Part shown: one piece after another, positions 1 through 56,994 of the stretch | Numbering within the stretch: the first letter of the stretch is position 1 | Layout: every line of letters starts with the position of its first letter | DNA from: Henckelia pumila | Lineage: Eukaryota; Streptophyta; Magnoliopsida; Lamiales; Gesneriaceae | Direction of reading: 5' to 3' | Length of the DNA: 64,000 bases | Assembly (NCBI RefSeq): GCF_033568475.1 | Contig: NW_027331831.1 | Coordinates: 9,424,001 to 9,488,000 of the forward strand | Translations under genes and position numbers: made by a program | Notes under the pieces: model-generated | Told to the model about the DNA's origin: nothing | Databases searched by the model: none | Seen by the model: only the letters and a program-made list of their open reading frames with translations

Positions 1-464
1 TTTAGGGAGTGATTGACAATTAACCCTTGATTCAATCAAATATTTGTGATTTACTGCTTATAAAAATGTATTTAAAAATAATTACACTGAGAATGAAGAA
101 ATTTGTAACGTTTCCAATTTCAATAATAATAATTTATGAATTTATAAAAAATAAAGTAATATATCATGCTAATACGTGTATATATAATATATTAACTAAA
201 ATAACTTCATTAATTTTTAATTCTTTCTATTTGAAAAATCAATATTCTTTAAAATAGTACATTTTTCAAGTTGAATCCACAATTCGAGTCATGCATGTTA
301 GACTAATTAGATGAGTAATTAAACCAAATATGTTTTTTTAAGAACGAATGATGGCTTTCGCTCTTTCAGTTTTTTCAAGTAATTAATTTTTCTAATCATA
401 CACTAATCCAAATATTAATTGATTAATAAATAATTCAAATATCATAAAAAAGTTTTTCGTTTCG
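1..464. other. AT-rich intergenic stretch
   Basis: I see no gene, RNA or clear repeat here. The short open frame at 27-257 is low-complexity AT-rich translation without a recognisable domain. Confidence 0.5.
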
Positions 465-655
465 GTTAATTGCAGGAAAAAACCGAACCAAAATCCGAAA
501 ATCTAAAAATCGAACCGAATTAACGTTTCGATTTTCAATTCAAACCGAATTTTCGGTTTTGGTTTAGGTGGTTATCCGAAATGTGAAAATTTTTCAATTC
601 AAACCGAATTTTCGGTTTCGAGTTGTGCGGTTATCCGAAATGTGAACATCCCCAA
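465..655. repeat. CCGAA/TTCGG-rich repeat with a 59-bp tandem duplication
   Basis: The stretch is crowded with CCGAA and its complement TTCGG. A 59-bp unit occurs twice head to tail (532-590 and 591-649), each containing AACCGAATTTTCGG and GGTTATCCGAAATGTGAA. Such self-complementary CCGAA blocks are common in small plant transposable elements, but I could not find terminal repeats or a target duplication, so the class is open. Confidence 0.5.
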
Positions 656-944
656 GCGGGGTTGGATGATTTTACTTTAACAAATGATTTATGTATAATT
701 GTAATTTAACAAATTCAGTTTCCTTATTCTATCCAAGATTTGGCAAATGCCCAAAGGAACTCCAACGAGCTAGCCTAGTATAATAGTAACATAAAACAAT
801 TTTAATTTGGTAAAATCGGAAAATTTTACATAACTCAAAACATATAACAAAGATAATTGAATTTATTGCTAAGAAGACAGAACGAACATCTTTGTTCCCT
901 TCTTCATAGTACAAATTTATTGTTTGCCAAATCTAACGTGAAAA

Positions 945-2565
945 TCAAGGAAGACGGGGGAATTTGGAGAAGTCGGGCTTCCTGTGTTGCAAGTACGAGT
1001 TCTTCCCCTCTGCACCTTCCTCAGTTCCATAAAACAGAAGAGTTCCATCTCCACCAAGTTGCTGTCACACAAGAAACAACAATATAATGTTATATTCTGA
1101 CTGATGATTGAATTTTTAAAGAAGATTATCCGACGTGCTTTCAATAAAAAAAGTTTAATACCTGAAGTCCAGAGTGACCATCATCGACTGCGTTAAGAGC
1201 CGATTTCAGGACGCGAATTGCCATCGGACTGTTCCTCATGATCTCTCTGCACCATTTGATTGTCTCCTCTTCCAAATTTTCCAGCTGCAAAATACATATA
1301 CATAGTTTCTTGTAAATCAATCATATATATATGTGCATCAAAAGGGAGTTTTATTACAATGTGGAGCACTTACTGGGACAACTTTATTGATGAGTCCCAT
1401 TTTATCAGCTTCAGCGGCATTGTAAAATCTTGCCATGAACCACATTTCACGAGCTTTTTTTGGTCCAACCTATTCAGATTCAAACCATTTGTTAGGGAAT
1501 GAAGGATCCCACAACTACTTTTTCTTGTAAAAATTTGATCTTGAATTCAAATTGAAGCTAGCATTCGAGTTTCAAAACTAATTACCAAACGATCCATAAC
1601 AGAAGCTCCGTAGCCAGCATCAAAGCTTCCAACCTTTGGTCCTGTCTGGCCAAAAACAGCATTATCTGCTGCAATTGTCATGTCGCAAACCATATGGAGC
1701 ACATGTCCACCCCCGACAGCATATCCAGCAACCATAGCAATCACCGGCTTTGGGAGACGACGAATTTGCACCTGATCAGTATTAATTCACAACTTCTTTT
1801 AGCAATCTATATATGCTTGTGTTAAACAGCAGATTCATAACTCATTGGGATTCAAACCTGCAAATCGAGGACATTCAGACGTCCGAAATTGTCGTAGTCG
1901 GCGTACCCATTTTTGCCTCTGAACGATTGATCACCTCCACTGCAAAAGGCTTGTGTGCCCTGTAATTTTTTGCGAGTTTCAAAATAAACATTAACTGACT
2001 ATTACACAATAAATTGCGTTATATTTGCTATTTCTTTATACCTTTCCGGTGAAAATAATGACCCCGATAGTGTTATCGTCCCGGGCATCATTGAATGCCC
2101 GCATGAGCTCTTTCACCGTGTGAGGCCTGAATGCATTCCTCCTCTCTGGCCTGTTGATTGTTATCTGTTGCCCACAAAATATAATATTACACATTCAACA
2201 AGGTAATAACTTTACCAATCAGCAAAAAACTCCCCCATCTTTTGGGCTCTAGTTATAATTAACTCAAAAGTCTTGATCTTTCGTATATATATTTCAAGAA
2301 AAAAAAATACCTTGGCAATGCCTTCTCCGATGGATTTTTCGTAGATGATATCGGTGAACGGCTTCCCGGACTCATCGGGCACCTGCCTCCATTCCGGAAT
2401 AAAGCCCGGAACTTCTCCGTGCACACGATGATAGGAATCGTTCAATCTTCCGCTGCAGTTGGACATGGCAATGCCCCCGCTTTCTGCAGATGGAGTGAAA
2501 TGCCCTGAAACAGAGGCCATTCTCCTGTTAACAAGGTCGATATCCTTCTGCGTCATCCCTGCCAT
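945..2565 (-). CDS. NS: 1,4-dihydroxy-2-naphthoyl-CoA synthase (naphthoate synthase, MenB type), copy 1
   Basis: The enzyme closes the ring of o-succinylbenzoyl-CoA to give 1,4-dihydroxy-2-naphthoyl-CoA in phylloquinone (vitamin K1) synthesis; in plants this step is peroxisomal. Seven exons, all phase 0 with GT-AG introns, splice to 333 residues, about the length of the Arabidopsis protein: 2311-2565, 2042-2164, 1858-1959, 1586-1771, 1374-1469, 1162-1284, 945-1061. Crotonase-fold motifs are intact: FCSGGDQ (131-137), AGYAVGGGH (175-183), [16 protein letters not shown] (200-215) and the C-terminal [11 protein letters not shown]202, G204 and D211 match E. coli Q154, G156 and D163, which suggests the bicarbonate-dependent type I. 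The start is the first ATG of the frame; a PTS2-like R15-M16-x5-H22-F23 follows. Further upstream the frame has only a TTG. No lesion was seen. Confidence 0.95.
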
Positions 2566-2691
2566 TGCTCTGTATCCCTTGAAATGTTTTGTTTCCAAAT
2601 GATTCTGAATGCCGCCGGGGAATTTGACAAGTGGAGGACTGGAAGTTTGGAAGATTTGTGTTTGTGTTGTGTTCAGTCTCAAGTGTTGGAA

Positions 2692-2702
2692 GGTTTATAT
2701 AG
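2692..2702 (-). promoter_or_regulatory. TATA box of naphthoate synthase copy 1
   Basis: On the minus strand the sequence reads CTATATAAACC about 130 bases upstream of the ATG. This leaves room for a 5' UTR of roughly 100 bases. The same box sits at the same place upstream of copy 2. Confidence 0.6.
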
Positions 2703-3856
2703 AGGTTGAGGAGAAGATAAGATAATTAGATTATTTAGATAAGCCTGCGATGTAATGCATGTGAAATTCCCAAATTGCCCATCCCTACTTTTGTTCGATG
2801 AATAAATTATTTTATAACTTTCATGACAATAATGTAAAATAAGGTAGGGTCAATATTCTTATATGGTGTTCTTTTATTTTTTACATTTAAAAATTAATAA
2901 TATACAGAAGCGTGCTCCTTGTTGCAACACAACACTCTCTAGTCAAAATAGGAAGCACAAGCATGCTAAGTTTGAAACTTATTTAGTCAAGTATTATAAC
3001 ATAAATATTGCCTTTAGTCCTCTTTCTAATCTAAGCACATAAATATCTAATTACTCGACTCGCCCAAGTGAAATCCTGATTCAAGACTTCTTGAATATTG
3101 AGGTCTCATATTTGCCATAATTAGATCAATTATAGATATATATATATATATATATATGAAACTCGTAAAATAATGTTTACATTGAATTTATTCAATGTTT
3201 TTAATGTATAATATACTGCAATTGAATTTAATACATATAACTTGAAAATGCAACTACTTGGTTTAGCGTACCCCAAAAAAAAAAAAGTATTTTACAATTA
3301 AATTTTCTAGTTCTGTATTCCGCTTTTTGGCTTTGATTGTTGAATACGTACATTTTTATATTCCATGTCACGTAATCTTAACTATGATCGGTCAAGAATG
3401 GCGTTGCCTTATATTTATTTCTTATTGTGGCATTACAAGAATCATGTTGGTATAATGTTTTCTTGACTAGAATAGTGTCTCCATTCAAAAATGGCGTTTG
3501 AATAGATTAATTCATGGAATTTTTTTCATGCTTCGTGGTGTATCGGGATTAAAATTTTATATTTGCACGAAAATTTTCTGTAGTTTTTAGAAAAATAAAA
3601 TTGGAGAGTCCAGATAGAGGCTGCTGCATTGACCGTTGGTGGTAGTCAGGAGCCATATTTCCAATTCCATATATTTAATTATTTATTATTATTACCATGA
3701 ATTTATTTATGAATAGACGAATAGAAAGATTAAAATTAAATACGAAATTCAACCGGACTTGCAATGTATATTTTTTTTTCATTGATTTCTTAATTTAATG
3801 GGACAATAATTTTTTTGATTCAGCAATCTGCTTTATTTTGGGTTTTTGTTTATTAA
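2703..3856. other. Intergenic; upstream flank shared with the second synthase copy
   Basis: No gene is visible. Blocks near 2930-2980, 3300-3350 and 3600-3670 recur in the same order near 10920-11000, 11510-11570 and 12840-12910, in the same position relative to the second synthase gene. They mark how far the duplicated unit reaches upstream. A short AT run lies near 3140-3157. Confidence 0.55.
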
Positions 3857-4405
3857 GAGAGTGTTTGGCTAAGCTTATTAAAAAGAATTTATAAGCTCTT
3901 AGAGTTTAAAAATACGAGTTTATAAGCTGTTAGAACTTATTTTAAAAATAAGTTATTAAAGTGTTTGGGTAAACTTATTTTAAACAACTTAAAGATGTGA
4001 TATGTTTGGTATTATAAGATCTTTTATTGTCAAAATTACCAAGAAGGGTATAAATTCTATGAAATAATGTTTCGAGTTATACATATACAAAAATAGTTTT
4101 AGAATAAACCTATATTAAAAAATAATTTTTTTTAATATTTTACTTTTAGAAAAATTTATGTGATTTGTAATTTTTTTTAAAAATAATTTTTAATATTTAA
4201 TGAGTGGAGGATAAGATGGAGATTTATTAAAATAAGATTTTTTTTAAAAAAAGTACATTCCCCCTTACTTTTTTTAAAACACCTTATAAACTGTCAAACA
4301 ACTTATTTTGATAGCTTATAAGCTGTTTTTTAAAAAAATTTACCAAACAAATTTTCAGAGCTTAAAAGCTCTAAAACAGCTTATAAGCTGTTTGAAAGAG
4401 CTTTT
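3857..4405. repeat. MITE-like repeat rich in TTATAAGCT palindromes
   Basis: The left side begins GAGTGTTTGGCTAAGCTTA and the right side contains repeated CTTATAAGCTGTTT. Parts of the two ends are complementary (TTATAAGCTGTTAGAA against AACAGCTTATAAG). This is the look of a non-autonomous hAT- or Harbinger-like element, but I could not fix clean ends or a target duplication. The open frame at 4308-4535 is part of it and is not a gene. Confidence 0.35.
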
Positions 4406-5090
4406 AATATCAGATGCACTAAATTTTAATTTACAACTATTTTGGTGTAATTGTTGTTATTGTCCCGATCATCTCAATGATTTCTCATGTCATACTCATA
4501 TAAGCAATTTTCAGCGCAAATTAACATTTTTATAGTGCATGTCATATCAGTATTTCGGGTGAAATAAGATTAAAATAAAAAATATTATATTATTTAGTGA
4601 ACCAAATCCCGAAGATTAAAAAAGTTATATTTTCCTAATATAAGTGGGGCAAAACTGGAAAAAAGATGGAGACTCTATGTTATGATGAATTTCAAGCTAT
4701 TGATGGTCTTCATCTTGCTATCGATCATCGGATATGAGATATATATGTGTTTGATGTGCAAGATTGGATTAATCCAATCTCATCTTATGTTGGTTTCAAT
4801 AATTATTTATCCTAAATCAATCAAAATCATTAATTACTTATTTCACATCAATCATATCATTAATATAAAATTACAATATTATCTTCACATATATTCTTTT
4901 ATTTATATTTATTAATCCTTAAAAAGGTTAAAAATAAAATTTTCTATTTAATTTTAAATTTAATCATTTAAACCAAACATATTATTTGTAGTAACACAAC
5001 TCTTGTTTTAAGTAATTAAAATGTTTAAGAATGTTTAAAGTATTAAAGCATGATTAAAAAATCCTTATTTGATAAAAATAAGTAGAAAAT
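4406..5090. other. AT-rich intergenic stretch
   Basis: No gene or clear repeat structure is seen. The short frame at 4682-4915 is hydrophobic, AT-derived translation without a domain. Confidence 0.4.
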
Positions 5091-6062
5091 CAACTTCAGA
5101 ACGCCCGAAAATGAACATGAGGACCCCAAGGACTCGAGTTCTTCGAAAGATTCGAACTACAAGCATGATAAGTTCGGAAGAAGAAAATGAGTTCGGAAGC
5201 AAAGGATTTTCGTAATATAAAAATTATAATATGTAACTATACTTTTCCCATTGGCGCTCTGAAAAAATTTCATAAAGAAAGATAAAATACATAACGATTC
5301 TTGAGCATGTTCGGGGATTAGGCTGCAGTTGAAAGAGCGAAATTCATCGGTTAAGTGCTCAAAAAATGGGGTGGGTTCGGACCTATTGAACGTGAGATCG
5401 GAGCATCCGAAGAGTTAGGGCATGCGCACTAATAAGGTGTGTGTTTAGACAAGTGAGATTTCATGCAAGATCGGAACATTCTAAATAGGGATCGGACCTT
5501 CCGAAGGTGTTCGGACCCACCAAACTCGGGATTGGAGCTTTCGAAGACAGGTGTCCAGAGAGGTGGTATGCATGGAGGTTCAACCTTCAGAACCTAGGAT
5601 AAGCTTCCGAACATGCTCTATAAATAGGGGCCGAGACTTCTCATAGTGGTGTGTGTTTGGAGGTGAAGTTGTGTGATTCAGTATATGTTTCTTAGTGTTT
5701 TAGCTTTATTCTCGAGGGTCGGGCGATAGCGAGATGCTACGGGACTGTAACGTAGTTGTGCTTGGGTCAAGACCTTCGATATCAGCCGGCTTGACGACAG
5801 AAGCATGTATAAATAAGTTTAGACTCTTAGTAGCTTTTGGGAGTAGCAATTAGCCTAGTTAAGACTTTTAGACGAGTTATAGTGATATGATATTATCTTG
5901 GCTTGTAGGTCTGGACTATAGACATTTGTTCAACTAGACCAATAGTTGAGGTATGTAAGTACAAAATGAGATAGTCAGCTGAATATGCATGCTTATGCAT
6001 GTGTTGCAATATTATATGTCATATGATGCATAATTATTGTTCATGATTTTGTATGCGACATT
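5091..6062 (+). mobile_element. LTR-like fragment of a Ty3/gypsy-type retroelement, plus orientation
   Basis: It holds many alternating TTCGGA and TCCGAA words, a TATA box CTATAAATAG at 5618-5627, then a transcribed-looking stretch with ATTAGCCTAGTTAAGACTTT and TTGAGGTATGTAAGTAC. The second half is clearly related to the reverse complement of 6063-7055: the same blocks occur in the same order with many substitutions. No coding region or target duplication was found. The gypsy assignment is inference from the general look of such LTRs. Confidence 0.45.
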
Positions 6063-7055
6063 GACATTTTAGTGACCCGCTCCGGAATCACCTAATTACA
6101 GAGGCTTAAATAAGTAATTAAAACTTAAATAATAATAATTTGATAAAACTACGGAAACTAATTAAAACAAATGATAACCCGGCAGAATACAACCGATAAA
6201 TAACTGCAATCCAAAATAATAATACAACCAAAAACACAGGAGGGTCAATCCTAACTAGCTCTGTTGGCACCAACTAAGTTCAAAATTCCCTGGTCACCAA
6301 CTACAAACTGGTCCTCTAACCCGGGAACCTGCAACTGTCCCGTCGAATGGGGTATTTAATAAGATACACGGACGTGAGCTAACAACGCTCAGTACAGATG
6401 TATGAGTATATACATACTATGAATGGATAATGCAAGTGAAGGGTACCGAAAATCTATCATCGATAGAATACTACTCAGTCAAAGGTGTCATGGTATGTAG
6501 CACACTGGGCCGTCGCATCAGGAAGTACTCCCATACCATAAAACCGTGGACATATCTGGATCCAAAACTATGGTATCCATCCACAAAATATAATGAGGCT
6601 GAACGACCTCTCTATTGATTATATCAATGATAAAGACTCAACGTGATAATGCATACATCATAATATTCGTGATATAAACAATGCACATAAAATAAAATCA
6701 CATTACAATCATATAACATGCATACTCAACCAGGATATCTCGGATAGTACGTCCGTACCTCAAATCATGCAACTCAAGCAACCTAGCCACCCGGGTACCC
6801 GAGTCGAAGCCTATAAACATATAATCACTATATCACTTATAGATTATTAAAAGCCTTAACTAGACTAATAGCTATTCACATATGCTAATCAGAGTCTAGT
6901 AATGATCCTGCATTCGTCGTTAGCCCTTTGATGACGATGACCTCAAAACCTAGACACAACTCCGCTACGATCCCAATAACGCCTCGTTATCGTTCGGCCT
7001 CCGAAAATTAAGTTTTAACCTCTGTTTAGTAGTGAATCCGGATTGGGTCAATACA
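6063..7055 (-). mobile_element. LTR-like fragment, minus orientation, related to the neighbour at 5091-6062
   Basis: Read on the minus strand it contains ATTAGTCTAGTTAAGGCTTT and TTGAGGTACGGACGTAC, which parallel blocks of the left neighbour. The two meet head to head near 6060, so the pair could be two solo LTRs inserted in opposite directions or one rearranged element. The frame at 6430-6618 shows no domain. Confidence 0.45.
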
Positions 7056-7171
7056 AGTTACATAACTGAAAATATAAATTTACTATTAATATGACCAAAA
7101 TTGGGAAACTTGCAAATAATAATAAGATCAAAAATGCAGTTCTCTCTACATATATATAAATATATAGGAAA

Positions 7172-7464
7172 ATAAGTTTTTTGGTCCATTAACTTGTACA
7201 TGTTTTGGTTTTGGTCCATTAACTTTTTCGATGTGGGTTTTGGTACATTAACTTTGCATTTTCAATGTTTTTGGTCCAACTGCATACGTGTCAACTTCTG
7301 ATTGGTCCAAAATGATGATGTGGACCAATCAGAAGTTGGACGTATGCAGTTGGACCAAAAAACACTGAAAATACAAAGTTAATGTATCAAAACTTATATC
7401 GAAAAAGTTATTGGACCAAAACCCAAAGAAAGTAAAGTTACTAGACTAAAAAACTCATTTTTTC
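7172..7464. mobile_element. Foldback (inverted-repeat) element with 10-bp target duplication
   Basis: Nearly the whole 293 bp is one long inverted repeat centred near 7315, built from TTGGTCCATTAACTTT-like words on the left and their complement on the right. The ten bases TATATAGGAA flank it on both sides (7162-7171 and 7465-7474). A 9-11 bp duplication points to a Mutator-type foldback MITE. It holds no coding sequence. Confidence 0.75.
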
Positions 7465-7474
7465 TATATAGGAA

Positions 7475-8640
7475 TTATATATATGTATATATACATCTAT
7501 ATGTATTATACTATATTTTTTTTATTCATATATAATATAATAGTAACAATTTAATCAAGTCATTGGGTCGAGTATGAATATTGAATAGGACGTTACTAGA
7601 TCTATCTTCATATCTAAACACGAAAATCTTTATACCTCATTATCCATATCCTCGTCCATTCGAATTGTGCATAAGATCATTTAATAGTTAGGAGAAAATA
7701 GTTGTCTCTAGGTTCAACATTATAAGATCAGTAAATTTTATCATTTTTTCATAATTTTCTCAACTAAGTTTTAGATATTAAGATAAATAAATTTTTGATT
7801 TATTTATTTATAATTTTAGATGTAAAATATCTTTAATAAAATAATTATTTTAAAAACAAAAAATAGTATTCATAAAAAACATGATATTAATATATTACAT
7901 TATATTATGTACTAATTTTTTCAAATAATTTTAAATATAATTTTTGTTGTTTAAATGATGGTTTAAATAGTAAAAAAAAAAGAGGAAAAGAGATTTACTA
8001 AATATGTTGGAATTAGTTGAGAGAAATGCGAAGAAAGGTCGGTTAGATGTGTTAAAAGTATGAATAATTACATAAAATGAAATTTCTATTTATATAAAGT
8101 GTTAGGGTAAAATAGGTAGGATATTTGGTGTGATAGCCTAATAGTTATTACCAAAGTGAGATTAGTCTGCCATTTAACTATATATTAAATTTAGATTGCC
8201 CAATCCAAAATCTTATTTAAGGATTAATCATATCATATATGTTTGTGTTACTTGCTTATATAGTTATTATTATTATTTTACTGAATTTTGTAAGTTGGCG
8301 CGAGCATTAAACCAAGAAAAGTTATAACTAATTAACTGGAAAAAAATTCTTCAATAATTCTAAAATATGAGAGAGTTTCTCAAATATTTTTTTCTCTCTT
8401 TGGTGGATACGATAAGATATAAAAGGAAAACCAGAAAAAATAGTGGAAGAATGTGATAGAGAAATTTTAGGAAATTACAAGACTCCAAAACATGTTTAAT
8501 CTATTGTGTCAATTCTTTATAAATGGTGTGCATATAATAAATATTTATTATAACCGAAACCAACATATATTAGTCGGCTGACAAACTGTTTAATCATTAA
8601 AAAATATGATTTTACAAAGTTTGCAAAGGCGCAAAAGTAC
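7475..8640. other. AT-rich intergenic stretch between the synthase copies
   Basis: No gene is visible. The last part (about 8640-8843) matches the 3' flank of synthase copy 1 (about 760-944) and belongs to the duplicated unit. Confidence 0.45.
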
Positions 8641-8843
8641 GTGAATTTATTGTTTAAGAAGATGATATTAAGTTACAACAACACAAATGATGAAACAATT
8701 AATTTGGTGAAATCGGAAAATATAAATAACAAAATGCGAATTTATTAATTTATTGCTTAAGAAGACGGAACGAACATCTTTGTTTTGTTCTGTCTTAACT
8801 TATTGCTAATTCCCAATATAATGTCAAAATCAAGATAAACGAA

Positions 8844-10477
8844 TCAAGGAAGACGGGGGAATTTGGAGAAGTCGGGCTTCCTGTGTTGCAAGTATGAGTT
8901 CTTCCCCTCCGCACCTTCCTCAGTTCCATAAAACAGAAGAGTTCCATCTCCACCAAGTTGCTGTCACACAAGAAATTAAACCACAATATATTATTATATT
9001 TTGATTGATGATTGAATTTTAAAGAAGATTATCCGACGTCCTTTCTATAAAAATTAAAAAGTTTAGTACCTGAAGTCCAGAGTGACCATCATCGACTGCG
9101 TTAAGAGCCGATTTCAAGACGCGAATTGCCATCGGGCTGTTCCTCATGATCTCTCTACACCATTTGATTGTCTCCTCTTCCAAATTTTCCAGCTGCAAAA
9201 TACATATACATAGTTTCTTGTAAATCAATCATATATATATGTGCATGAAATGGAGGCCGGGTTTTATTACAATGTGGAGCACTTACTGGGACAACTTTAT
9301 TGATGAGTCCCATTTTATCAGCTTCCTCGGCATTGTAAAATCTTGCCATGAACCACATTTCACGAGCTTTTTTTGGTCCAACCTATTCAGATTCAAACCA
9401 TTTGTTAGGGAATGAAGGATCCCACAACTACTTCTTCTTGTAAAAATTTGATCTTGAATTCAAATTGAAGCTAGCATTCGAGTTTCAAAACTAATTACCA
9501 AACGATCCATAACAGAAGCTCCGTAGCCAGCATCAAAGCTTCCAACCTTTGGTCCTGTCTGGCCAAAAACAGCATTATCTGCTGCAATTGTCATGTCGCA
9601 AACCATATGGAGCACATGTCCACCCCCGACAGCGTATCCAGCAACCATAGCAATCACCGGCTTCGGGAGACGACGAATTTGCACCTGATCAATATTAATT
9701 CACAACTTCTTTTAGCAACCTAAGCAGAAGATTATGAATTCAACACTCAACATATGGGGATTCAAACCTGCAAATCGAGGACATTCAGACGTCCGAAATT
9801 GTCGTAGTCGGCGTACCCATTTTTGCCTCTGAACGATTGATCACCTCCACTGCAAAAGGCTTGTGTGCCCTGTAATTTTTTGCGAGTTTCAAAATAAACA
9901 TTAACTGACTATTACACAATAAATTGCATTATATTTGCTATTTCTTTATACCTTTCCGGTGAAAATAATGACCCCGATAGTGTTATCGTCCCTGGCATCA
10001 TTGAATGCCCGCATGAGCTCTTTCACCGTGTGAGGCCTGAATGCATTCCTCCTCTCTGGCCTGTTGATTGTTATCTGTTGCCCACAAAATATAATATTAC
10101 GTACACATTCAACAAGGTAATAACTTTACCAATCAGCAAAAACTCCTCCATCTTTTGGGCTCTAGTTATAATTAACTCAAAAGTCTTGATCTTTCGTATA
10201 TATATTTCCAGAAAAAAAATACCTTGGCAATGCCTTCTCCGACGGATTTTTCGTAGATGATATCGGTGAACGGCTTCCCGGACTCATCGGGCACCTGCCT
10301 CCATTCCGGGATAAAGCCCGGAACTTCTCCGTGCACACGATGATAGGAATCGTTCAATCTTCCGCTGCAGTTGGACATGGCAATGCCCCCGCTTTCTGCA
10401 GATGGAGTGAAATGCCCTGAAACAGAGGCCATTCTCCTGTTAACAAGGTCGATATCCTTCTGCGTCATCCCTGCCAT
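8844..10477 (-). CDS. NS: 1,4-dihydroxy-2-naphthoyl-CoA synthase (naphthoate synthase, MenB type), copy 2
   Basis: This is a tandem copy of the gene at 945-2565 with the same seven phase-0 exons: 10223-10477, 9952-10074, 9768-9869, 9499-9684, 9287-9382, 9070-9192, 8844-8960. Exon lengths equal those of copy 1 exactly, giving 333 residues. By eye the proteins differ at two places: V for I in KS(I/V)GEG in exon 1, and E for A in YNA(A/E)EADKM in exon 5. The other coding differences I found are silent, which suggests both copies are under constraint. All catalytic motifs and the PTS2-like N-terminus are kept. Introns and about 100 bases of promoter are also nearly the same, so the duplication is recent or has been homogenised. 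Confidence 0.95.
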
Positions 10478-10597
10478 TGCTCTGTATCCCTGGAAAACTT
10501 TGGTTTCCAAATGATTCTGAATGCCGCCGGGGAATTTGACAAGTGGAGGACTGGAAGTTCTGAAAATTTGTGTTGTGCTTGAGTTAAAGTGTTTGAA

Positions 10598-10608
10598 GGT
10601 TTATATAG
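10598..10608 (-). promoter_or_regulatory. TATA box of naphthoate synthase copy 2
   Basis: The minus strand reads CTATATAAACC about 120 bases upstream of the ATG, the same box and spacing class as in copy 1. Confidence 0.6.
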
Positions 10609-11236
10609 AGGTTGAAGAGAAGATGAGATGAATAGATAAGCCTACAGTAATTCAGGCGAAACTCCAAAATTGCCCATCCCTGCTTTCGTTTGAAGAAATA
10701 CTTTATTTTATAATTCTCATTTTAATAATTAAAATATACTAGGGTCAATATTCTCACTTTATATATATATTTTTTATAATTTTATAATTCTCAGTTGAAA
10801 CTCCAAAAATGCCCATCCCTGCTTTCATATGAATATGTATAAAAAAAAATACATCAAAAATGTTGAAATAATACTCTCGGCCGTGTGGCATGGAACACGA
10901 TTATTTTTAGATATAAAACCATAATCTTTGGTGCATTAACACAAAACACTCTCAAGTCAAATATAGGTAGCACAGGCTTGCCAAGTTTGAAACATAAATT
11001 GTATCAAGAAACAATATATATATTTTTGAAACTCTTAAAATAAAATTTAAATTCGATTTATTTGCTTTATATTATTTTTATGTAGTCACTGCAAATTAGA
11101 ATTTAATACGCAGATTTTGAAAATGTAACTCCTACGTTTAACATAGTGAGAAATTATCTTAAAAAAAACATAGTGAGAAATTATTTCTTTAAGTGCCAAT
11201 AAGAAATGCATACATTAAATTAATAATATTCATCAA
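10609..11236. other. Intergenic; duplicated upstream flank of copy 2
   Basis: No gene is seen. Fragments match the flank upstream of copy 1, for example AAACTCCAAAATTGCCCATCC near 10660. The AAACTCC-CCCATCCCTGCTTTC block is itself repeated near 10797. Confidence 0.45.
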
Positions 11237-11244
11237 TATAGCTA

Positions 11245-11464
11245 GGGTGATTTTATGTTACACCGGGTGAAATACTTATTATTTTTTTTCACATGTCCGC
11301 ATGAACATCACGATGTTTGCATGAACATTACACTAAATGACAAAAATAAAAAAAAAATTACAGACAGATCCGCATGATTTTTTTTCACCGTGATGTTCGC
11401 GCGAATATCTCAACAAAAACAAAAAAAAAAATATATTTCAACCAATGTAACATAGAATCATCGG
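11245..11464. mobile_element. Small MITE with 8-bp target duplication
   Basis: The 220-bp stretch has inverted ends: GATTTTATGTTACACCGG on the left and the complement of GATTCTATGTTACATTGG on the right. TATAGCTA flanks both ends (11237-11244, 11465-11472). An 8-bp duplication fits hAT-like elements. The interior repeats words such as CATGAACATCACG and has no coding potential. Confidence 0.65.
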
Positions 11465-11472
11465 TATAGCTA

Positions 11473-11897
11473 CCATAACCTTCAACCGTTCTCAATTATT
11501 CAATATTCATTGTCTAGTTCCGTATTAATTTTTTTTTTCTTTTGTGGCTTTGATAGTTGAATATATTCAATTTTATATTCCATGGCTCGTTATCTTAAGT
11601 CTAATAATCAGTCAAGATCGGCGTTGCCTTTTATTCATTTTCTTATCATGACACCAAACAAAATGGAACAAGAATCATGCTGGTTTTATGTTTTCTTGAA
11701 TTAAATAATTTTTCCATTCATAAACGGCGACTGGTTAAATCAAATTAATGGTTTAATTCTTTATATATTCCCTAAGATTTGCATAACTAATTAACTATGA
11801 CTATAAATACATTCAACTAACTTTGAAATTTAAACTAACATACTTTTTATATTTTTTGTATCCATTAACTTTAAAAATTACATACAATTTTTCTCGT

Positions 11898-11933
<36 letters not shown>

Positions 11934-12088
11934 TTTTTGAATTTAAAGTGACAATCGTAATAAAAATAAAATATCATGGAGTTTGCATGTAATTTTCAAA
12001 TTTAACGATAATAAGTTTTTCAAAATTGTTATAATTTTTTAAATTAAAATATATGTTGGGTGTAATAATTGTCCTTACCGAATACTGT
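11473..12088. other. Intergenic with an AT microsatellite
   Basis: No gene is seen. An (AT)n run lies near 11899-11930. The block at about 11510-11600 matches the upstream flank of synthase copy 1. Confidence 0.4.
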
Positions 12089-12096
12089 GTTTTAAC

Positions 12097-12625
12097 CAAT
12101 GTTCTAAAAAGCGGTAGACGGTAGGCGGACGGTCACGCACCGCCTAGCGTCTAGACGCTTAGGCGGCGTCTAGGCGATTTTTTTAGCCTAAATATCTAAT
12201 TATTCTAGTATAACCCATCTTAATATTTCTTCAATAATTTTTTTTTATCTAATTCTCCTGCCTAAGTGGTGTTTTTTTAAGTCTAAACATTTAATTATTC
12301 TTGTTCATCTTAATATTTTTCAATTAATTTTTCGTTATCGAATTCAACTCGAAATACATGACATATTTCACGTTTTCATCCGATACAAAATTGATAGACA
12401 AATATGTCAAATAATTTTTTTAAAAAAAATTAAAATTAAAAAATATATAAAATATTAATTATATGTTAATCTACGCGGCCGCCTAGACGAATTTTGAGGC
12501 GTCTAGGCGACGATTAGGCGGCCTAGACCGTCAATTAATGTAATAACTCTCAGAATCTTCAACTGTCTAAAAATCGAGGCGGTGGACAACCGCCTAACGT
12601 CTAAACGTCGCCTTTTAGAACACTG
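12097..12625. mobile_element. Non-autonomous hAT-like element of a GCCTAG-rich family
   Basis: The element starts CAATGTTCTAAAAAGCGG and ends with the complement of CAGTGTTCTAAAAGGCG. Near both ends the words CGCCTAG, TAGGCG and GTCTAGACG recur in both orientations. It belongs with 13337-13774, where an 8-bp target duplication supports the hAT class. No clean target duplication was found at this copy. Confidence 0.6.
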
Positions 12626-13328
12626 AAAAATACTGGTTTTAAGAGTTGCACCGACTATAACTTTAAGCGTTAAAGTATTCGTTCCTACCGTATATATTTA
12701 GTACAATATCTACCATAAATTATTTCATGGAAACTTGTCCATGCTTCATGTTGTATTGTGCTTTAAATATTAATTGTTTCAAGCATTTTTTTCGAGAGAG
12801 AATTGTTTCAAGCATTTTCAATAGAATTTAGAAAAACAAAAATTGGAGGGTCAAGTTAAAGGCTTAAGTTGACCATTGGTAGTACTCGGGAGCCACATTC
12901 CCGATTCTAAATCTTTTTCTTGAATTTTATTTATGGATGGGTGTATCTTACAATAAATAAATGAATAAAATTACACGATCAAATTATAATTAACGCGTGT
13001 GATTTATTTATAAATATATTTTCCGAAAATAAGTTTCAATTATAAAATTACAGCTAACACAATAACATTTTTTTTTGTTATATTAATATTATTTCAAATA
13101 TTTTCTTTCAAAAAAATATTATTTCAAATATTATAACTATTAGTTTCACCTAATTTTTTTAAATTAAAAACTAGGCTAACATCCAAAACATGAATTCCAT
13201 TTTTTGTTTTGATGGTCTTCACTTTATATTAGTTTTTTCTTACGAGTTTTAGATGATATATTTTGTCTATATTTTATTTCTAGAATTCATGTTATTTATA
13301 TCATTATATTTATTGATGAAAAAAATAT
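12626..13328. other. Intergenic; remnant of duplicated upstream flank
   Basis: No gene is visible. The stretch around 12840-12915 resembles 3605-3675 upstream of synthase copy 1. Confidence 0.4.
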
Positions 13329-14536: not shown

Positions 14537-15417
14537 TGAAGATGTCGAAATTCTCCTCCGAGTTCGGTCTGGTAGAGTGAATCTCCAAATCTTCAATAAA
14601 CCGGGTCGGGTCGGGCACGATGGATTTCTGCACAGACACAAGCCAAGTTAGGGGGCGCCGAAGGTGTTTTCGGCGTGACCCCTCCGATGCCTAAGTCAGT
14701 ACTCGAAAGTGAAAGAGCTTGACTAAAAGTAAGAACAAGAGAATATGCGTGCGTGAGTGTGTGAACAAGAAGTGAATAGAAGAGATGAATATAATGAATC
14801 CATAAACCATGAACCATACCTGTATTTATAGGGGCTTGGAGGGGTAGGTTACCTTGTCAAGGTAGAACATGTGTTAGAGTAGGACTCTAATTGATGAGTC
14901 TGAAATCATATCAAATCTTGGATTCATAAGATATTTTCCTTATCTGTTGCAGATCTTCATGTATCCGAGAGTACTGAAAGGTTCTAGATATTGGACCCTT
15001 CCTGGGTCCGGTTCGGGCTCCAACCATACCAGTTAGGGCTCAAGCCCATGAATTTATGATCATGAGCACATTCCCTAACAGGGCCATCCCAAACCGGGCT
15101 TCTCATAAAATAAGACTAGATGTGCCTCAAAGTATATTTCCAAAAATATGGATTATTGAGCTCGGGTTTGGCTTTTACTATGCCTAGACAGGGCTCGGCC
15201 CAGTGAGCTCAGCAGCTAGGGCTTGAGTCAAGGGCTCTTTCCTTTGTCTTGAATAGGTCCATCTAACTTGAATTGGTACATGGGGCATGATCGAATGAGC
15301 TTTGTATTGTCTTAAATCCTGTCTCATAACAATAATAGGTGATTTTTGAACCACGTTCTCTGATTATGGGTTGTCGGGTTCGGATCGGACCAGACCCAAT
15401 TATTTATGGGGGCATCA
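14537..15417 (-). repeat. 3' LTR of the gag-only element
   Basis: It is an 881-bp copy of the LTR at 17849-18727 with scattered substitutions. The minus strand has a TATA box CTATAAATAC near 14823-14833. The frame at 14593-14817 lies inside the LTR and is not a gene. Confidence 0.9.
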
Positions 15418-15418
15418 A

Positions 15419-15440
15419 TAGTACCTCCCTTTCTGGTCTA
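15419..15440 (-). other. Polypurine tract of the gag-only element
   Basis: On the minus strand the purine-rich AGAAAGGGAGGTA lies a few bases before the 3' LTR, where plus-strand DNA priming is expected. Confidence 0.6.
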
Positions 15441-15867
15441 AAAGAAGTATGAATTTTAGACCAAGTGGTCTGGTTGGATCCCGAACCGAGTAGAAAAAAT
15501 TTTCTCCGTACAGATCATATCTCGAATAGGAGTACTCTGTGAGTTTTCTATATGACAAAATATGACAAAATTTTGCAGAGTACTAAACATATTCCCGAGC
15601 TGGAATATAGCAAAATTTTGCTTAAGCATTAAACATATTCCCTAACTGGAAACATGATTTAAAGATCCACCAAGTGCAAAGTATATTCCCGAGCTGGAAT
15701 AAGATTATGAAATTTTAACAAGTGTAAAGCATACTTCGAGCTGGAATTTTGCTAAAATTCAACCACAAATCGCATGATGCACGCCGAGCTGATTGGGCTT
15801 TTAAGTTTGATCATGAATTCCGTGTTGTATACGGAGTTGGTCGGGCTTTGCGTTTGACAACGAAGTG

Positions 15868-16432
15868 CGTGATAGGTGCCGAGCTTGGTCGAAGATTTTG
15901 AGATAACCACGAGTGGTGTGGGTTTACATATTGCCGAGCTGGTCGGGATTTTGAGATAACCATGAGTGACATAGATTTACATATTGCCGAGCTGGTCGGG
16001 CTTTCGAGATAGCCATGAGTGGCGTGGGTTTACATATTGCCGAGCTGGTCGGGCTTTTAAGATAGCCACGAGTGGCATGGGTTTACATATTGCCGAGCTG
16101 ATCGGGCTTTTGAGATAACCACGAGTGGCGTGGGTTTAAATATTGCCGAGCTGGTCGGGCTTTTGAGATAACCACGTGTGGCGTGAGTTTATATATTTCC
16201 GAGCTGGTCGGGCTTTAGAGATAACCGCGAGTGGCGTGGGTTTACATATTTCCGAGCTGGTCGGGCTTTTGAGATAACCACGAGTGGCGTGAGTTCACAT
16301 ATTGCCGAGTTGTCGGGCTTTTGAGATAACCACGAGTGGCGTGGGTTTAAATATTGTTGAGCTGGTCGGGCTTTTGAGATAACCACGAGTGGCATGAGTT
16401 TATATATTGCCGAGCTGGTCGGGCTTTAGAAT
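15868..16432. repeat. 53-bp tandem array inside the gag-only element
   Basis: About eleven imperfect copies of a unit of about 53 bp are read in a row; each contains GCCGAGCTGGTCGGGCTTTT, then GAGATAACCACGAGTGGCGT and GGGTTTACATATT. More diverged copies extend left to about 15770. The array lies between gag and the 3' LTR, where a full element would carry the end of pol. Open frames through it, such as 16189-16395, only reflect the repeat. Confidence 0.9.
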
Positions 16433-16659
16433 TCTTCGCGTTTGACAAAAAAACATGTCTTTTTCATTAATAACTCAAAAAGATATTTCCAAAATTTGAA
16501 AAATAACAAAATAACTTGGCTACTATTGTTAACAAAATTAAAAATAAAATTAATGAAATAACTCATAACCCATTGTGTTATGAGGCTCGGTAGTGGAGTA
16601 GGATTGTTCAGGCACCTATGCATAATATTTCTTCAAGTGTTGGGCGTTTCATGACCTCT

Positions 16660-17808
16660 TCACTTTTGCTCAGAATGGTCTGGACCATCTCGATCCTTTT
16701 TTCCGGGCCGATACCTTCCTCCTTGTCGCACTACCAATATATCTTTCATCACCTCATCTTGTTGAATTATCCTCTCAATCTCTTGTTCCAATTGTCGACA
16801 GTCATTGGTGAGGTGCCCATATTCATTGTGAAAATCACAATACTTATCAGATTTTGGCCTGCGAGGCCCCTGCTCACTCCATGGGGGTCTTTGTAGAAGT
16901 CTTTTTTCTTCGCATATTCGCAGGGCCTGAGTCTTACTCATCCTTAGAGGGGTGAAGGATGAGAATTGTCCAAGAAGCTCGGGTCGAGGAGTTGGTCCCA
17001 TCTTCCGAGGCGTGTTAGGGATCATGGTGTCCTTTGGGCTTGGAGGCTTGTCTATCCCCCCATTCAACCGAGAAACTTGTATCTCCTCTAAAATCACGTA
17101 TTTTTCGGCCCGAGTAAGCAACTCATCGTATGTAGACGCCGGTTTTTTGATCAAGGATTTAAGGAAATCCCTTGTAGTAAGTCCTTGGGTGAAAGCGCTG
17201 ATGAGCAGATCAGTAGTGGCAGTAGGTACTTCAAGGGCCAAAGCACTAAATTGACGAATATATGCTCGCAAATCTTCTTGACCTTGCTGTTTGACAGCGA
17301 AAAGACTAAGAGTTGCCGTGGGGTGCTTTTTGCTACTAGCAAAATAGTGTAGAAAGGCCTTGCTGAAATCCTTGAATTCCTTGATGTCCCCTGGACGCAA
17401 TAGGTTGAACCATTGTTGTGTTGGCCCTATCAGAGTATTGAGGAAGACCCGTCACTTGATCGGGTCAGAATATTTGTGCAACAGCGCAACATTCTCAAAA
17501 CGGGACAGGTGCTCTTCCGGATCCCCTTTTCCATCATATTCCCCAACATGTGGAAACTTAAAGTTTTTGGGGAGTTCGGACTCCAGTATTTAAGCAGAGA
17601 AATGAATATTCCGGACCGGCGTGGCTAGGTATCCGGACTGCTTCTTCTTCAAGAGCTACATCTCTTCTTTCAATTTCTTGATCTCCTCCAATTGTGCGTT
17701 CTGATCTGGTGGGGGGATATTGGCTTCCCCCCTTGCAGCTGACGCTCGTTAGACAGCGGTAGTGACAAGTTGATTTATTTATGCGTTGACTCCGTTCGCA
17801 TCAGCCAT
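16660..17808 (-). pseudogene. Broken Ty3/gypsy gag
   Basis: One frame runs from ATG at 17808 to a stop at 16660 (382 codons) and is interrupted by about five in-frame stops, four in the first 75 codons and one at about codon 135. The last 246 codons are open. They hold a retrotransposon gag domain (FLNTLIGPTQQWFNLL, then FKDFSKAFLHYFASSKK) and a histidine-bearing zinc knuckle, CDFHNEYGHLTNDC, seen in the TAT/Ogre branch of plant gypsy elements. Shared phase throughout shows substitutions rather than indels. As the only protein of the element it probably once formed particles with pol supplied in trans. Confidence 0.85.
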
Positions 17809-17830
17809 CTTAATTCTTTTTCTTGAAATT

Positions 17831-17846
17831 CCCATAGACGGCGCCA
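17831..17846 (-). other. Primer binding site of the gag-only element
   Basis: The minus strand reads TGGCGCCGTCTATGGG two bases after the 5' LTR. Sites starting TGGCGCCG are typical primer sites of plant gypsy elements. Confidence 0.8.
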
Positions 17847-17848
17847 AT

Positions 17849-18727
17849 TGATGATGTCGAAATTTTCCTCCGGGTTCGGTTTGGTAGAGTGGATCTCCAA
17901 ATCTTCAATAAACCGGGTCGGGTCGGGCACGATGAATTTCTGCACAGACAGAAGCCAAGTTAGGGGGCGCCGAAGGTGTTTTCGGCGTGACCCATCCGAT
18001 GCCTAAGTCAGTGCTCGAAAGTGAAAGAGCTTGACTAAAAGTAAGAACAAGAGAATATGCGTGCGTGAGTGTGTGAACAAGAAGTGAATAGAAGAGATGA
18101 ATATAATGAATCCATAAACCATGAACCATACCTGTATTTATAGGGGTTTGGAGGGGTAGGTTACCTTGTCAAGGTAGAACATGTGTTAGAGTAGGACTCT
18201 AATTGATGAGTCTGAAATCATATCAAATCTTGGATTCATAAGATATTGTACTTATCTGTTGCAGATCTTCATGTATCCGAGAGTACTGGAATATCTAGAT
18301 ATTGAACCCTTCCTGGGCCCGGTTCGGGCTCCAACCATACCAGTTAGGGCTCAAGCCCATGAATTTATGATCATGAGCCCATTCCTTAACAAGGCCATCC
18401 CAGACCGGGCTTCTCATAAAATAAGACTAGATGTGCCTCAAAGTATATTTCCAAAAATATGGATTATTGAGCTCGGATCTGGCTTTTACTATGCCTAGAT
18501 AGGGCTCGGCCCAGTGAGCTCAGCAGCTAGGGCTTGAGTCAAGGGTTCTTTCCTTTGTCTTGAATAGGTCCATCTAACTTGAATTGGTACATGGGGCATG
18601 ATCGAATGAGCTTTGTATTGTCTTAAATTCTGTCTCATAACAATAATAGGTGATTTTTGAACCACGTTCCCTGATTATGGGTTGTCGGGTTCGGGTCGGA
18701 CCAGAGCCAATTATTTATGGGGCATCA
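17849..18727 (-). repeat. 5' LTR of the gag-only element
   Basis: The 879-bp LTR carries the element's minus-strand promoter; a TATA box CTATAAATAC lies near 18134-18144. It differs from its partner LTR at scattered sites, so the insertion is not very recent. Confidence 0.9.
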
Positions 18728-18732
18728 AATTG

Positions 18733-20391: not shown

Positions 20392-22350
20392 TTAGCAAGA
20401 ATCATTATCCCCCGGATTAATGTTGCTGCTAGCTGGCTTTCCAATTTGCAAGCAATTCACCGGAGGACTTGTGGGAGACAAGAGCTTTCCGAATGCTTGC
20501 CAACAATAAGGATCATACATGTGATGCTGTTGTTTCTGAGGCTGAAGCTCTATTCCCGTCAATGTCACATCCGTGCACGGCGTGCTATCGCTGCACGCGA
20601 AGTAGACGGGGCTCACGGTGTATGTTCCCCGTATATTTTCGTAACTTATGCCCGATAGAGCCACTGCAGACGTTTGGTTCTTGCAGCTTCGCGCGTCGCA
20701 ATAATATTGGTCGATGATGATAGGGAGTTGGACTTGGGATACTTGAATGTTTGAGAATTGTATCCCTTGCACAGATCCTAATCCACCCTGGAAACATATA
20801 TATAATATATAATATATTGTTTAATTAATTTTCTTCGGGAATCATGACTTGTATTGCTACTTGCTAGCTAGCGCTATGTAATATTTTACCTGCCATGTTT
20901 TGATTCGGACACCATTGGTGGTGTCCCGCAAGATTACGTCTCTAACGGTGACGTTCGATACACAAGCCTTGGTGTTATCTTTTCCTAGGCCTCCGATGCT
21001 GATGCCATGTCCTGGTCCGCAGTTGACGTCATGTACGTATACATTGTTGCATCCAGTTTGTATGGATACACAATCATCCCCTGATTAACATGGCCAACAC
21101 TTTACTTAATTAGTACTTTCACATACGAATAGTGAAAAATTAGGTAGTGCGTGCTTATTTACGTACCACAAGCAAGATTGGAATTACGAATAAGCACATC
21201 TTTGGAGTTCTGGAGATGTATCCCGTCCGTATTCGGGCTGTCACCGGGGGACGAGACGCTAAAATTATAGACGGATACTCCAATGCAATTGTCGAATTTT
21301 AGATGGCATTGAGGGCTGTTCTGTATTCTTATTCCGGTTACCGTCACATTGAAACTTCCATAGAATCTAAGTGCCTAATCAAGCATTAAGAATCATGCAT
21401 GTTGTTCTCTTTTAGTTCCAATGGAATGAGAAATGACATTTTCTTTTTTAAAAAAAAAAAGGGGACACAATTAATATAATGTCAATGTTGGTTCTCACCG
21501 TAGGCTTTATGTGTGGCATTTTCTCTCCAGATGAGCTTGCCAACTGCAATTTTTGGCCCAAAAAATAAAAAAAAGTTGTGACAATTAGAAGGATAATTAA
21601 GCGACTCATTGTAAAGTACCCGGCCAATGTAGTTAAAGATATACTTGTAAATATGTAGTTTTTCAACATGTGTTGTTATAAAATATACTATTGCCACTTT
21701 AGTATATATATAAATTCTTGCTAACTTTAGGCATATGGGAATTAATTAATTAAACCAACTAACGAATTAAAAGATAAAGAATCATACTGAAATAGGAGGA
21801 CTTTGCTGCATTAATGTTCCATTTGATGGGTTTATAAGTGTTGATGGACCATCCAAGGGATCATCTTCATACGAAGAACCTTGCCACCAAACTGCCCCGT
21901 TTCCGTCTATCGTGCCGCTTCCCGTTACCCTAAGTCCTACCAATTTTGTGAATTCAAGCCACTGAAGAAGACCAGAGCCCCATGCCTTTGAGCTTGTTGG
22001 GGCAACAATTTTACCATCTAACTGCCAAAAGTTAACAAACACATCACCTTGATCAACCAACTTTTTGGATAACATATATATGCTTAAAATAAAAGCATTT
22101 AATTTATAGTTTTTGTGTTTGTAGTTTACCTGAAAAACAATGTTGTGTTGACAATTTGGACCAGAAAATGAAATTGGTCCCACTAGAAATACATATTCTG
22201 CTGGGACATTGACGATGGAGGCTTCAACCTTGCAAGCAGCAGCCCATGCAGCTTCAAATGCCTGCATTAATGAATTTACCCATATGAACTCGATTGATCT
22301 TTTTCATTACTTTTAATCAATTCCTATAGTTTTCTATTTTATTACAACTT

Positions 22351-28075: not shown

Positions 28076-28077
28076 CG

Positions 28078-28506
28078 GTCATCAAATTAGCTGCAAAATG
28101 AAAAGTTCCTTTGTGGGATTGCAAACTAAAAAACAAATTATGAATTTATTCAAAAAAAAAAAAATCATGGTGTTATAAGATTGAGTGTTTTAGATGAATC
28201 CAAAATTATTTCCATGATTTCATATATTAGTATAAGTTGTTCTTATATTATATTATATTATATATTAGATTATTTATATATATTATGTAAAAAAAAATTC
28301 AAATGTATATATAAACTTTTTAGATTTATTATTATTAATTTTTTAATCAAAAGCTTTGTTTTCTCATTATCTATTAAATTGTTATTTCGCAACTTCGTCA
28401 CAATGAATCAAGCCCTCGATTGCCAGATGTTAGCGGAAGTTGGTTCATATTTATCCGATATATTTGATATTTTATATTATCAAATTTTGTTTGATTTGAG
28501 TGATTT
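28078..28506. other. AT-rich intergenic stretch
   Basis: No gene is seen. The frame at 28181-28510 is low-complexity translation and overlaps the MITE to the right. Confidence 0.4.
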
Positions 28507-45140: not shown

Positions 45141-45185
45141 CGAGCATCATTAATTATATATGATAATTATTATATGTTTCCATAT

Positions 45186-48100: not shown

Positions 48101-48520
48101 TGGACCCACGTTTATTTTTGTTTTAACATCATAACTCCAACAAATTATAATATTATTCTTCACACATTTATATGAAAATTAACCCCAAGAAAAAGACATA
48201 AATTTCTGTGGTAGCATTTACCTTTCGAAGCTAAAAAAAGACCGAAATAGATATGAATAATAATAAAACCTAAGACAATCTAACCAAATTTCAATAAATT
48301 AAATCGTGACATTTGATTATTGATTAACTTGTATTACCGTGTAAGTTCCCAATTTGTGATATGAAGTTATAACCAAGAAAAGATGACAAGTCGTTCTCCC
48401 CCAATTTTATTTTCCCCAATTTTCTGTCCAATCAAAGGCGATCTGATGATTGTTGTTTTATAAAATTTAAGTTTATCAGGTTTTAACTTGGGTCTTTACA
48501 AATGACCTCTAAATTTGCTT
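45186..48520 (-). mobile_element. hAT-family transposon remnant, copy A
   Basis: This 3.3-kb unit runs from AAATTTCAATAACAAGAATAC to about GGGTCTTTACAAATGACC and is followed directly, in the same orientation, by copy B starting with the same bases at 48521. It contains the degenerate transposase at 45318-47751 and non-coding ends. Terminal inverted repeats were not identified. Confidence 0.7.
45318..47751 (-). pseudogene. Degenerate hAT transposase (TTF zinc finger / DUF4371 / hAT dimerisation), copy A
   Basis: Pieces of a ZMYM1-like hAT transposase lie in order: the N-terminal SVTLDKFF and KKR segment; RRQIWEYHHNQREEIRRTY; a TTF-type zinc finger region with FTVDGFCNWKK; the DUF4371 core with APKNVKYTSHDIQKQILHV and IIGQGYDGASNMRGEFNGLQ; MELVLSTKNLLQRMRNNKWDDLL; and the dimerisation region LTLPVSTATIEQSF, ending RRILFS and TAG. 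The start codon is changed to ATA, a TGA follows LEHDP, and several frameshifts are present. Where active relatives have VDEARD, this copy reads FYDSRD, so the first catalytic aspartate is lost. Confidence 0.85.
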
Positions 48521-51107: not shown

Positions 51108-51121
51108 ATCTCCCACTTGCC
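51108..51121 (-). other. Polypurine tract of the young copia element
   Basis: The minus strand reads GGCAAGTGGGAGAT directly before the 3' LTR. The gag-pol stop lies just beside it. Confidence 0.7.
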
Positions 51122-56873: not shown

Positions 56874-56980
56874 AAAATTTTTTTTTTTTTTTTATTTAAA
56901 ATATTTATTTTGTTTTAAAAAACCAAGACTCAAAAATTTTTGTACAATCGATTAATTTAATCGTTTGATCTGAGCAACCT

Positions 56981-56993: not shown

Positions 56994-56994
56994 C

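Follow-up and report, generated by a model that had tools for sequence, protein, structure and literature searches.

The question raised by this locus is how two neighbouring genes come to be so alike. Within a 64,000-nucleotide stretch of the Henckelia pumila genome (the window) lie two naphthoate synthase (NS) genes, here termed A and B, which the original prediction took to be a near-identical tandem pair, by implication a recent duplicate. The alternative is that the pair is older, and that part of its sequence has since been made alike.

Gene structure and enzyme identity

Both genes lie on the minus strand and comprise seven exons. Splicing and translation (for A together with matches to TIGR01929 and to PDB structures) place copy A at 945..2565, with exons at 2311-2565, 2042-2164, 1858-1959, 1586-1771, 1374-1469, 1162-1284 and 945-1061, and copy B at 8844..10477, with exons at 10223-10477, 9952-10074, 9768-9869, 9499-9684, 9287-9382, 9070-9192 and 8844-8960. 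Position 945 is the stop end of A and 10477 the start of B: the span 945-10477 is thus exact. Introns are bounded by GT and AG in 12 of 12 cases. As predicted, each copy encodes 333 amino acids (plus stop) through exons of equal length (255, 123, 102, 186, 96, 123 and 117 nt, summing to 1002 nt), and the proteins differ at two residues, I79V and A241E. These account for two of the 11 codons in which the 12 nucleotide differences (of 1002) fall; the other nine codons are silent. The Ka/Ks comparison suggested with the prediction, run on the spliced pair, gave a dN of 0.0032 and a dS of 0.044 (NG86), or 0.0036 and 0.034 (YN00). With non-synonymous change in 2 of 11 differing codons (P = 1.3e-4 against an expectation of 75%, itself a rule of thumb), coding constraint is supported.

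1,4-Dihydroxy-2-naphthoyl-CoA (DHNA-CoA) synthase (NS, MenB) cyclises OSB-CoA to DHNA-CoA. The predicted identity and intactness are upheld by family profiles, scanned with copy A alone (B differing by two residues): A scores 407.2 bits over the full length of NCBIfam TIGR01929, above the curated equivalog cut-off of 342.7, and 448.2 bits against NF005637 (cut-off 380). Its best PDB matches are solved MenB structures (2iex, 4els/4i42 and 3t88), and HMMER alignments to 2iex, 4els and 3t88 show conservation of the SGGDQ loop, a 10-residue stretch and LFYxTEE, which we take to be active-site stretches of MenB. These results support A and B as intact DHNA-CoA synthase genes, whose products are predicted to convert OSB-CoA to DHNA-CoA.

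The N-terminus of both proteins carries a 10-residue, PTS2-like motif of the form RMx5HF, and the more diverged gene NS1 (below) carries RRMASVAGHL, that is, RMx5HL. The tomato NS has the PTS2 RVx5HL, and further plant PTS2 proteins have RVx5HF or RLx5HF, forms described as canonical (PMC9328179); the form RMx5HF does not occur in the main text of that paper. A and B may be peroxisomal.

Divergence of the core and its flanks

Introns and flanks are not equally diverged. Core introns differ at 17 of 574 sites (3.0%, leaving out a patch in intron 3). The 3' flank differs at 37 of 143 (26%; Fisher P 5e-16 against the introns), and the farther 5' flank at 286 of 863 (~33%, poorly alignable stretches included; Fisher P 1e-51); local blastn blocks in the 5' flank differ by 14-28%. 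Between these lie the 5' UTR and proximal part (15/129) and the promoter (26/148). The edge is also graded within the gene: intron 6 differs at 8 of 99 sites as against 9 of 475 in introns 1-5 (P 0.004). The dS of 0.034-0.044 agrees with the intron divergence, while Jukes-Cantor (JC) distances for the flanks are 0.32 and 0.44. Of the features said to be duplicated along with the exons, then, the introns stand, whereas promoter and 3' flank retain only diverged homology.

A two-state HMM on the A/B alignment (difference rates of 0.02 and 0.25, set by hand and not fitted) delimits a homogenised core at 941..2647 in A, interrupted at 1806-1846 and partnered by ~8838-10559 in B. One of its edges falls close to the stop codon, the other close to where transcription probably starts. 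A TATA-like box, recognised by eye and by alignment, lies at 2692..2704 (minus strand) in A and is conserved in B (~10598-10610); the core ends ~45 bp downstream of the box in A, and transcription of A probably begins near this edge. The core ends adjoin gene features, and the boundary may partly reflect selection acting on the gene, which would not account for the introns.

Upstream, A 2860..3738 and B 10911..12973 share homologous blastn blocks in the same order, with identities of 72-86% (65-72% under looser scoring), and B has extra sequence between the shared blocks. Downstream, A 791..944 is homologous to B 8690-8843; beyond these limits no clear homology was found when the left side was searched against the spacer. 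Two weak matches between the left side of A (20 kb plus 790 bases) and the spacer (62-64%, E 2e-8 and 2e-5) fell in unexpected places and were not used.

The interruption of the core is a patch of ~40 bp in intron 3 (1806..1846 in A, ~9719-9756 in B) in which 22 of 39 sites differ. A three-way alignment shows that an NS2 fragment elsewhere in the genome, C4a, carries the A version. Aligning the patch in inverted orientation beats the forward alignment (shuffle P 0.008 vs 0.18); the B version may possibly be an unconverted remnant, a small inversion or a local rearrangement. Changes found only in C4a are themselves clustered, 9 of 12 falling within one 100-bp window (a density equalled in 4 of 20,000 random draws). 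Sites at which A and B share one base and C4a and C79 share another all fall inside this tract (3/3), a tract chosen post hoc and a comparison of only three shared sites. The intron-3 patch and this cluster may be signs of mosaic sequence within the family. Outside the tract are 42 contrasting sites, mostly where C79 aligns poorly.

Two NS lineages and the origin of the pair

The assembly comprises 884,658,702 bases in 133 contigs; of the 20 whose lengths were compared, four measure 183-234 Mb. The published genome is reported to have four pseudochromosomes (2n = 8) and a size of 885.25 Mb (PMC10627561). Inventories of the whole genome yielded 29 matches to TIGR01929 (31 of 31 candidates scored) and 15 matches at the DNA level (10 of 10 candidates scored). 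Three intact-looking NS genes emerge, in two lineages: NS1, and NS2, which consists of A and B. Further loci are a broken neighbour of NS1 and three NS2 fragments. NS1, on contig C2, is an intact gene of nine exons that is identical to A at 280 of 332 aligned residues (84%) and separated from A and B by a dS of 1.1-1.3. The whole-genome duplication of Lamiales is placed at a Ks near 0.75 (PMC10627561). Two adjacent NS1 introns are absent from A and B, and intron sizes are 111-1287 nt in NS1 and 82-148 nt in NS2. The existence of this far more diverged gene overturns the idea that A and B are merely a first and second copy of a single gene: they represent an old second NS lineage, itself doubled. 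The 1.5 kb upstream of NS1 gave no match to the 1.5 kb upstream of A or B. A comparison for shared gene order, of 84 kb around the pair, on contig C77, with 80 kb of C2 (ORFs of at least 50 codons, in repeat-rich DNA), gave no matches to the PPR, polygalacturonase or RING frames; the matches found were MenB and other long ORFs, one carrying RVT_2.

We consider it likely, on the evidence of this one genome, that A and B are an old tandem NS2 pair homogenised by gene conversion, with the flanks left diverged. An ancestral NS2 gene and its flanks would have been duplicated in tandem long ago; in one or several later conversion events, the most recent of them in the middle of the gene, the transcribed part of one twin would have been overwritten by that of the other, while promoters and 3' flanks went on diverging. 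The enzymes made by A and B would as a result be practically identical, although the sequences upstream of the two genes differ.

The obvious competitor is a recent, simple tandem duplication whose flanks then changed unusually fast. It draws on the likeness of the core itself, where all but one of 16 hundred-site windows between A 961 and A 2566 (exons and introns alike) show 92-100% identity and 14 reach 97-100%; the remaining window has 76%. However, a recent duplication confined to the core is hard to reconcile with the diverged yet homologous sequence on either side of it: flank homology is collinear but reaches only 72-86% in local 5' blocks and 74% on the 3' side. Introns and synonymous sites are normally near-neutral, and here their divergence is about one-tenth of that seen in flanks only some hundreds of bases distant. 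We regard recent duplication as improbable, and an older duplication with later homogenisation as the probable history of the pair. Selection acting on exons and introns of the transcribed unit together could in principle keep A and B alike without conversion, and the core boundaries at the stop codon (941) and near the likely transcription start (2647) fit such an account. Yet divergence at synonymous sites is as low as in the introns, and the introns of NS1 and NS2, unlike in number and size, show that introns are not generally frozen; this reading is equally improbable.

Least credible of all is an artefact in which alleles or a repeated contig end were assembled in tandem, the case that had been named as refuting the original prediction. 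C77 (16.255 Mb) is not one of the four chromosome-size contigs among the 20 contigs compared, and near-identical cores may mislead assemblers. But alleles would not differ by 3% in introns and by 26-33% alongside, the flanks and spacer are strongly different, and DNA searches of the assembly find the pair at one place only. Homologous but diverged flanks thus make assembly duplication very unlikely.

Gene conversion gives duplicates a young look: set against flank JC distances, the core dS would yield a coding date roughly ten-fold too young. Among the literature matches listed, titles and abstract openings contained no report of the A/B pair.

Metabolic role and known systems

Both genes are probably expressed, and would serve phylloquinone synthesis and, in Gesneriaceae, plausibly that of naphtho- or anthraquinones. 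Such compounds are known from other gesneriads (PMC10519256, PMC4342217, PMC7853596), which makes the earlier suggestion that a second copy adds dosage for a specialised quinone plausible. There is nonetheless an even chance that A and B are kept for phylloquinone only, their doubling reflecting neutral drift or subdivision of expression. The literature passages retrieved, by searches that did not use the species name, mention no H. pumila quinone. Against a role in phylloquinone only stand the quinones of other gesneriads, and the finding of one matching locus in the genome for PHYLLO (its MenD part) while NS is multiplied: among two countable steps, the NS step stands out. A count of MenE copies by TIGR01923 was rejected, as its 10 matches, with 10 of 91 candidates scored, look like the wider acyl-activating family. 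A more elaborate proposal, which we hold only tentatively and think rather unlikely, is that NS2 is a gesneriad or Lamiales lineage for specialised naphtho- and anthraquinones, with recurrent conversion keeping A and B at one protein sequence for the sake of dosage and promoters diverged between tissues, NS1 being left to phylloquinone. If true, dosage would act where unstable OSB-CoA must be consumed. In walnut, high expression of DHNA-CoA synthase has been argued to avoid futile loss of this intermediate (PMC6210188), an argument that would give reason to amplify the NS step alone. In any event NS1, NS2-A and NS2-B are concrete genes with which to ask how DHNA is split between vitamin K1 and defensive quinones.

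Comparison with known systems places the pair as follows. The bacterial MenB structures (2iex, 4els/4i42, 3t88) align with residues 67 or 70 to 333 (E ~2e-115) and share with copy A the SGGDQ stretch and an 11-residue stretch, but the alignment leaves out the first ~66 residues of the plant protein. With plant peroxisomal NS, A and B have in common a full-length MenB domain and a PTS2-like N-terminus; they differ in their tandem doubling, the absence of two introns found in the C2 gene, and the RMx5HF form. NS1 belongs to the same enzyme family, but differs in exon number, N-terminal motif and contig. Sequence exchange among duplicated plant genes, as proposed here, is described for the RPP8 resistance genes (PMC6771003); RPP8 is a highly polymorphic resistance family, whereas A and B are an enzyme pair of primary metabolism.

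Near-identical core and diverged flanks

The two naphthoate synthase (NS, MenB) genes lie in tandem on the minus strand, gene A at 945-2565 and gene B at 8844-10477. Splicing comparison bore out the original prediction of two such copies: each has seven exons, identical in length between A and B, and encodes 333 residues, with two residue differences (at positions 79 and 241). Against TIGR01929, copy A reaches 407 bits, above the cut-off of 342.7; its best solved-structure relatives are bacterial MenB, and the predicted A/B protein is a full-length MenB. At residue 79 Val is found both in B and in NS1 – a more diverged, intact NS gene on contig C2 of the same genome. Because Gln or Lys occupies position 241 in the bacterial enzymes of the alignment, and because NS1 has Asp at the site matching the Glu of B, the change at this residue does not look harmful.

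Between A 961 and A 2566, identity reaches 97-100% in 14 of the 16 hundred-site windows (92% and 76% in the other two), and dS between A and B is 0.034-0.044. The further claim that introns and flanks had been duplicated needs qualification: the introns are indeed near-identical (17 of 574 sites differ, with one patch left out), but the flanks, while homologous, are far less alike. The 3' flank differs at 37/143 sites; at the 5' end, differences rise from 15/129 in the 5' UTR together with the sequence immediately upstream, to 26/148 across the promoter and 286/863 in the more distal 5' flank, where the alignment includes poorly alignable stretches. Local blocks of the 5' flank, collinear between the copies, show 72-86% identity. 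A two-state model, its rates set by hand, delimits the near-identical core as A 941-2647, interrupted at 1806-1846. The boundary at 941 coincides with the stop codon, and that at 2647 lies, by eye, some 45 bases downstream of a TATA-like box conserved between the copies. Divergence is higher in intron 6, which adjoins the 3' edge (8/99), than in introns 1-5 (9/475; P 0.004).

An old tandem pair that has undergone gene conversion has a near-identical core and flanks that are homologous yet diverged on both sides. Simple recent duplication predicts that the flanks match as closely as the introns do, out to an abrupt limit; unequal crossover would be expected to leave one flank alike, and an assembly copy should have identical flanks. 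Selection is able to keep exons alike, but as a rule not introns, which in the NS family are otherwise free to change (as comparison of NS1 with A and B shows). Because the core is bounded on both sides by homologous but diverged sequence, its near-identity is probably the product of gene conversion acting on an old tandem pair, a process we infer from one genome. The observation of a near-identical pair is confirmed and its interpretation partly borne out, the likelier reading now being old tandem duplicates under conversion.

NS genes and fragments across the genome

The 884,658,702-base assembly containing the window was searched with the DNA of the A/B core (10/10 candidates scored, 15 matches) and with TIGR01929 (31/31 candidates scored, 29 matches), searches that could miss very diverged NS exons. 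None of the TIGR01929 matches exceeds the whole-protein cut-off, since each exon matches separately. In addition to A and B (together the NS2 lineage), the searches recovered intact NS1 (C2:178741644-178745648), a relic upstream of NS1 (about C2:178700574-178718016, represented by exons 3-9 alone within the 80 kb that was read) whose last exon contains a stop, and three A/B-type fragments: C4a (C4:81544847-81545536), C79 (C79:6175659-6176120) and C4b (C4:84429940-84430080). Sequences at C2:177242317 and C3:18614639 look, by our reading, like other crotonase-family genes. This inventory gives two lineages with three intact-looking NS genes between them; the NS1 locus is duplicated too, the copy there having decayed to a broken tandem relative. 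To regard A and B as "the" gene and its copy is therefore too simple: NS1 is a separate intact-looking lineage.

NS1 has nine exons and encodes 335 residues, 280 of 332 aligned residues being identical to A (dN 0.10, dS 1.1-1.3). The low dN relative to dS speaks for constraint on both lineages, and because dS equals or exceeds the peak for the Lamiales duplication, reported at about 0.75 (PMC10627561), both are judged to be old. Exon 4 of A and B (186 nt) corresponds to NS1 exons 4, 5 and 6 (39 + 99 + 48), and therefore two adjacent introns are either missing from A/B or gained in NS1; the NS1 relic has the same exon split as NS1. By general experience, loss in NS2 is likelier than gain in NS1.

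Fragment C4a comprises 690 bases of NS2, introns included, within repeat-like flanks rich in short TCGGAAGCTCCGA-type repeats, and resembles a piece of a gene captured by a repeat element. In the intron-3 patch it follows A, but at the residue-79 codon and a 4-base insertion in intron 1 it agrees with B. Of the 12 changes private to C4a, nine cluster within a single 100-base window, a density matched in 4 of 20,000 random draws, and this tract shares states with C79 at 3/3 shared sites inside it (Fisher P 0.002, the tract having been picked post hoc and the contrasting sites outside lying mostly where C79 aligns poorly). There are thin hints of repeated exchange within the NS2 family. The intron-3 patch of B gives a better alignment with that of A when inverted (shuffle P 0.008) than in forward orientation (0.18), and is possibly a small inversion. 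A 3-base deletion in exon 2 is common to C79 and C4b; C79 consists of two gene pieces side by side, the part between them missing.

Neighboring features

A repeated element occupies 15-652, just downstream of A: 44 of 47 genome matches to window 1-3000 fall within it, at 72-89% identity (40/293 candidates scored). Between A and B an inverted repeat of ~340 bases (7147-7487) is perhaps a MITE-like element. At 14537-18728, direct terminal repeats, 96.5% alike, flank a gag-like ORF (PF03732) in what looks like an LTR retroelement; inside the element lies a tandem repeat with a 53-base unit present in about 10 copies (15877-16427). Interleaved duplicated blocks (93%, 94% and 99.4% alike) span 45185-61114, with two long ORFs amid them, copia-like by eye (51125-52447 and 52417-55080) – perhaps one element nested in another. 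GC-rich tandem repeats at 56552-56896 stand in AT-rich DNA. The minus strand also carries polygalacturonase-like gene pieces (GH28; 20395-22303), a PPR frame of 668 codons (26075-28078) and a RING-finger frame (30026-30601).

NS copies and quinone metabolism

NS is described as converting OSB-CoA to DHNA-CoA for phylloquinone, and the authors of a walnut study argue that abundant NS prevents wasteful loss of OSB-CoA, which is unstable (PMC6210188). Repeated recruitment of DHNA to specialised 1,4-naphthoquinones is reported, as is excretion of naphtho- and anthraquinones by Streptocarpus dunnii (PMC7853596); such quinones are also recorded from Primulina hedyotidea (PMC10519256) and Sinningia (PMC4342217). 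In Lamiales the later pathway genes MenA and MenG are reported to have been duplicated, with altered targeting (PMC8133638). In a search of the genome for the MenD family (8/8 candidates scored), four of six matches lie at C79:2337434-2339301; the other two, on C4 within long open frames, we take to be other thiamine-diphosphate enzymes. Because the MenD family is thus taken as one locus, only NS is multiplied by our count of two pathway steps (NS and MenD). Given the gesneriad quinones, the OSB-CoA argument and the multiplication of NS alone among these two steps, the predicted role of a second copy – dosage for a specialised quinone product – would be a reasonable idea.

The A/B pair offers a useful twist, bearing on both the dating of duplicates and quinone metabolism, and is of a known kind: tandem duplicates under gene conversion, and old paralogues of a pathway enzyme.
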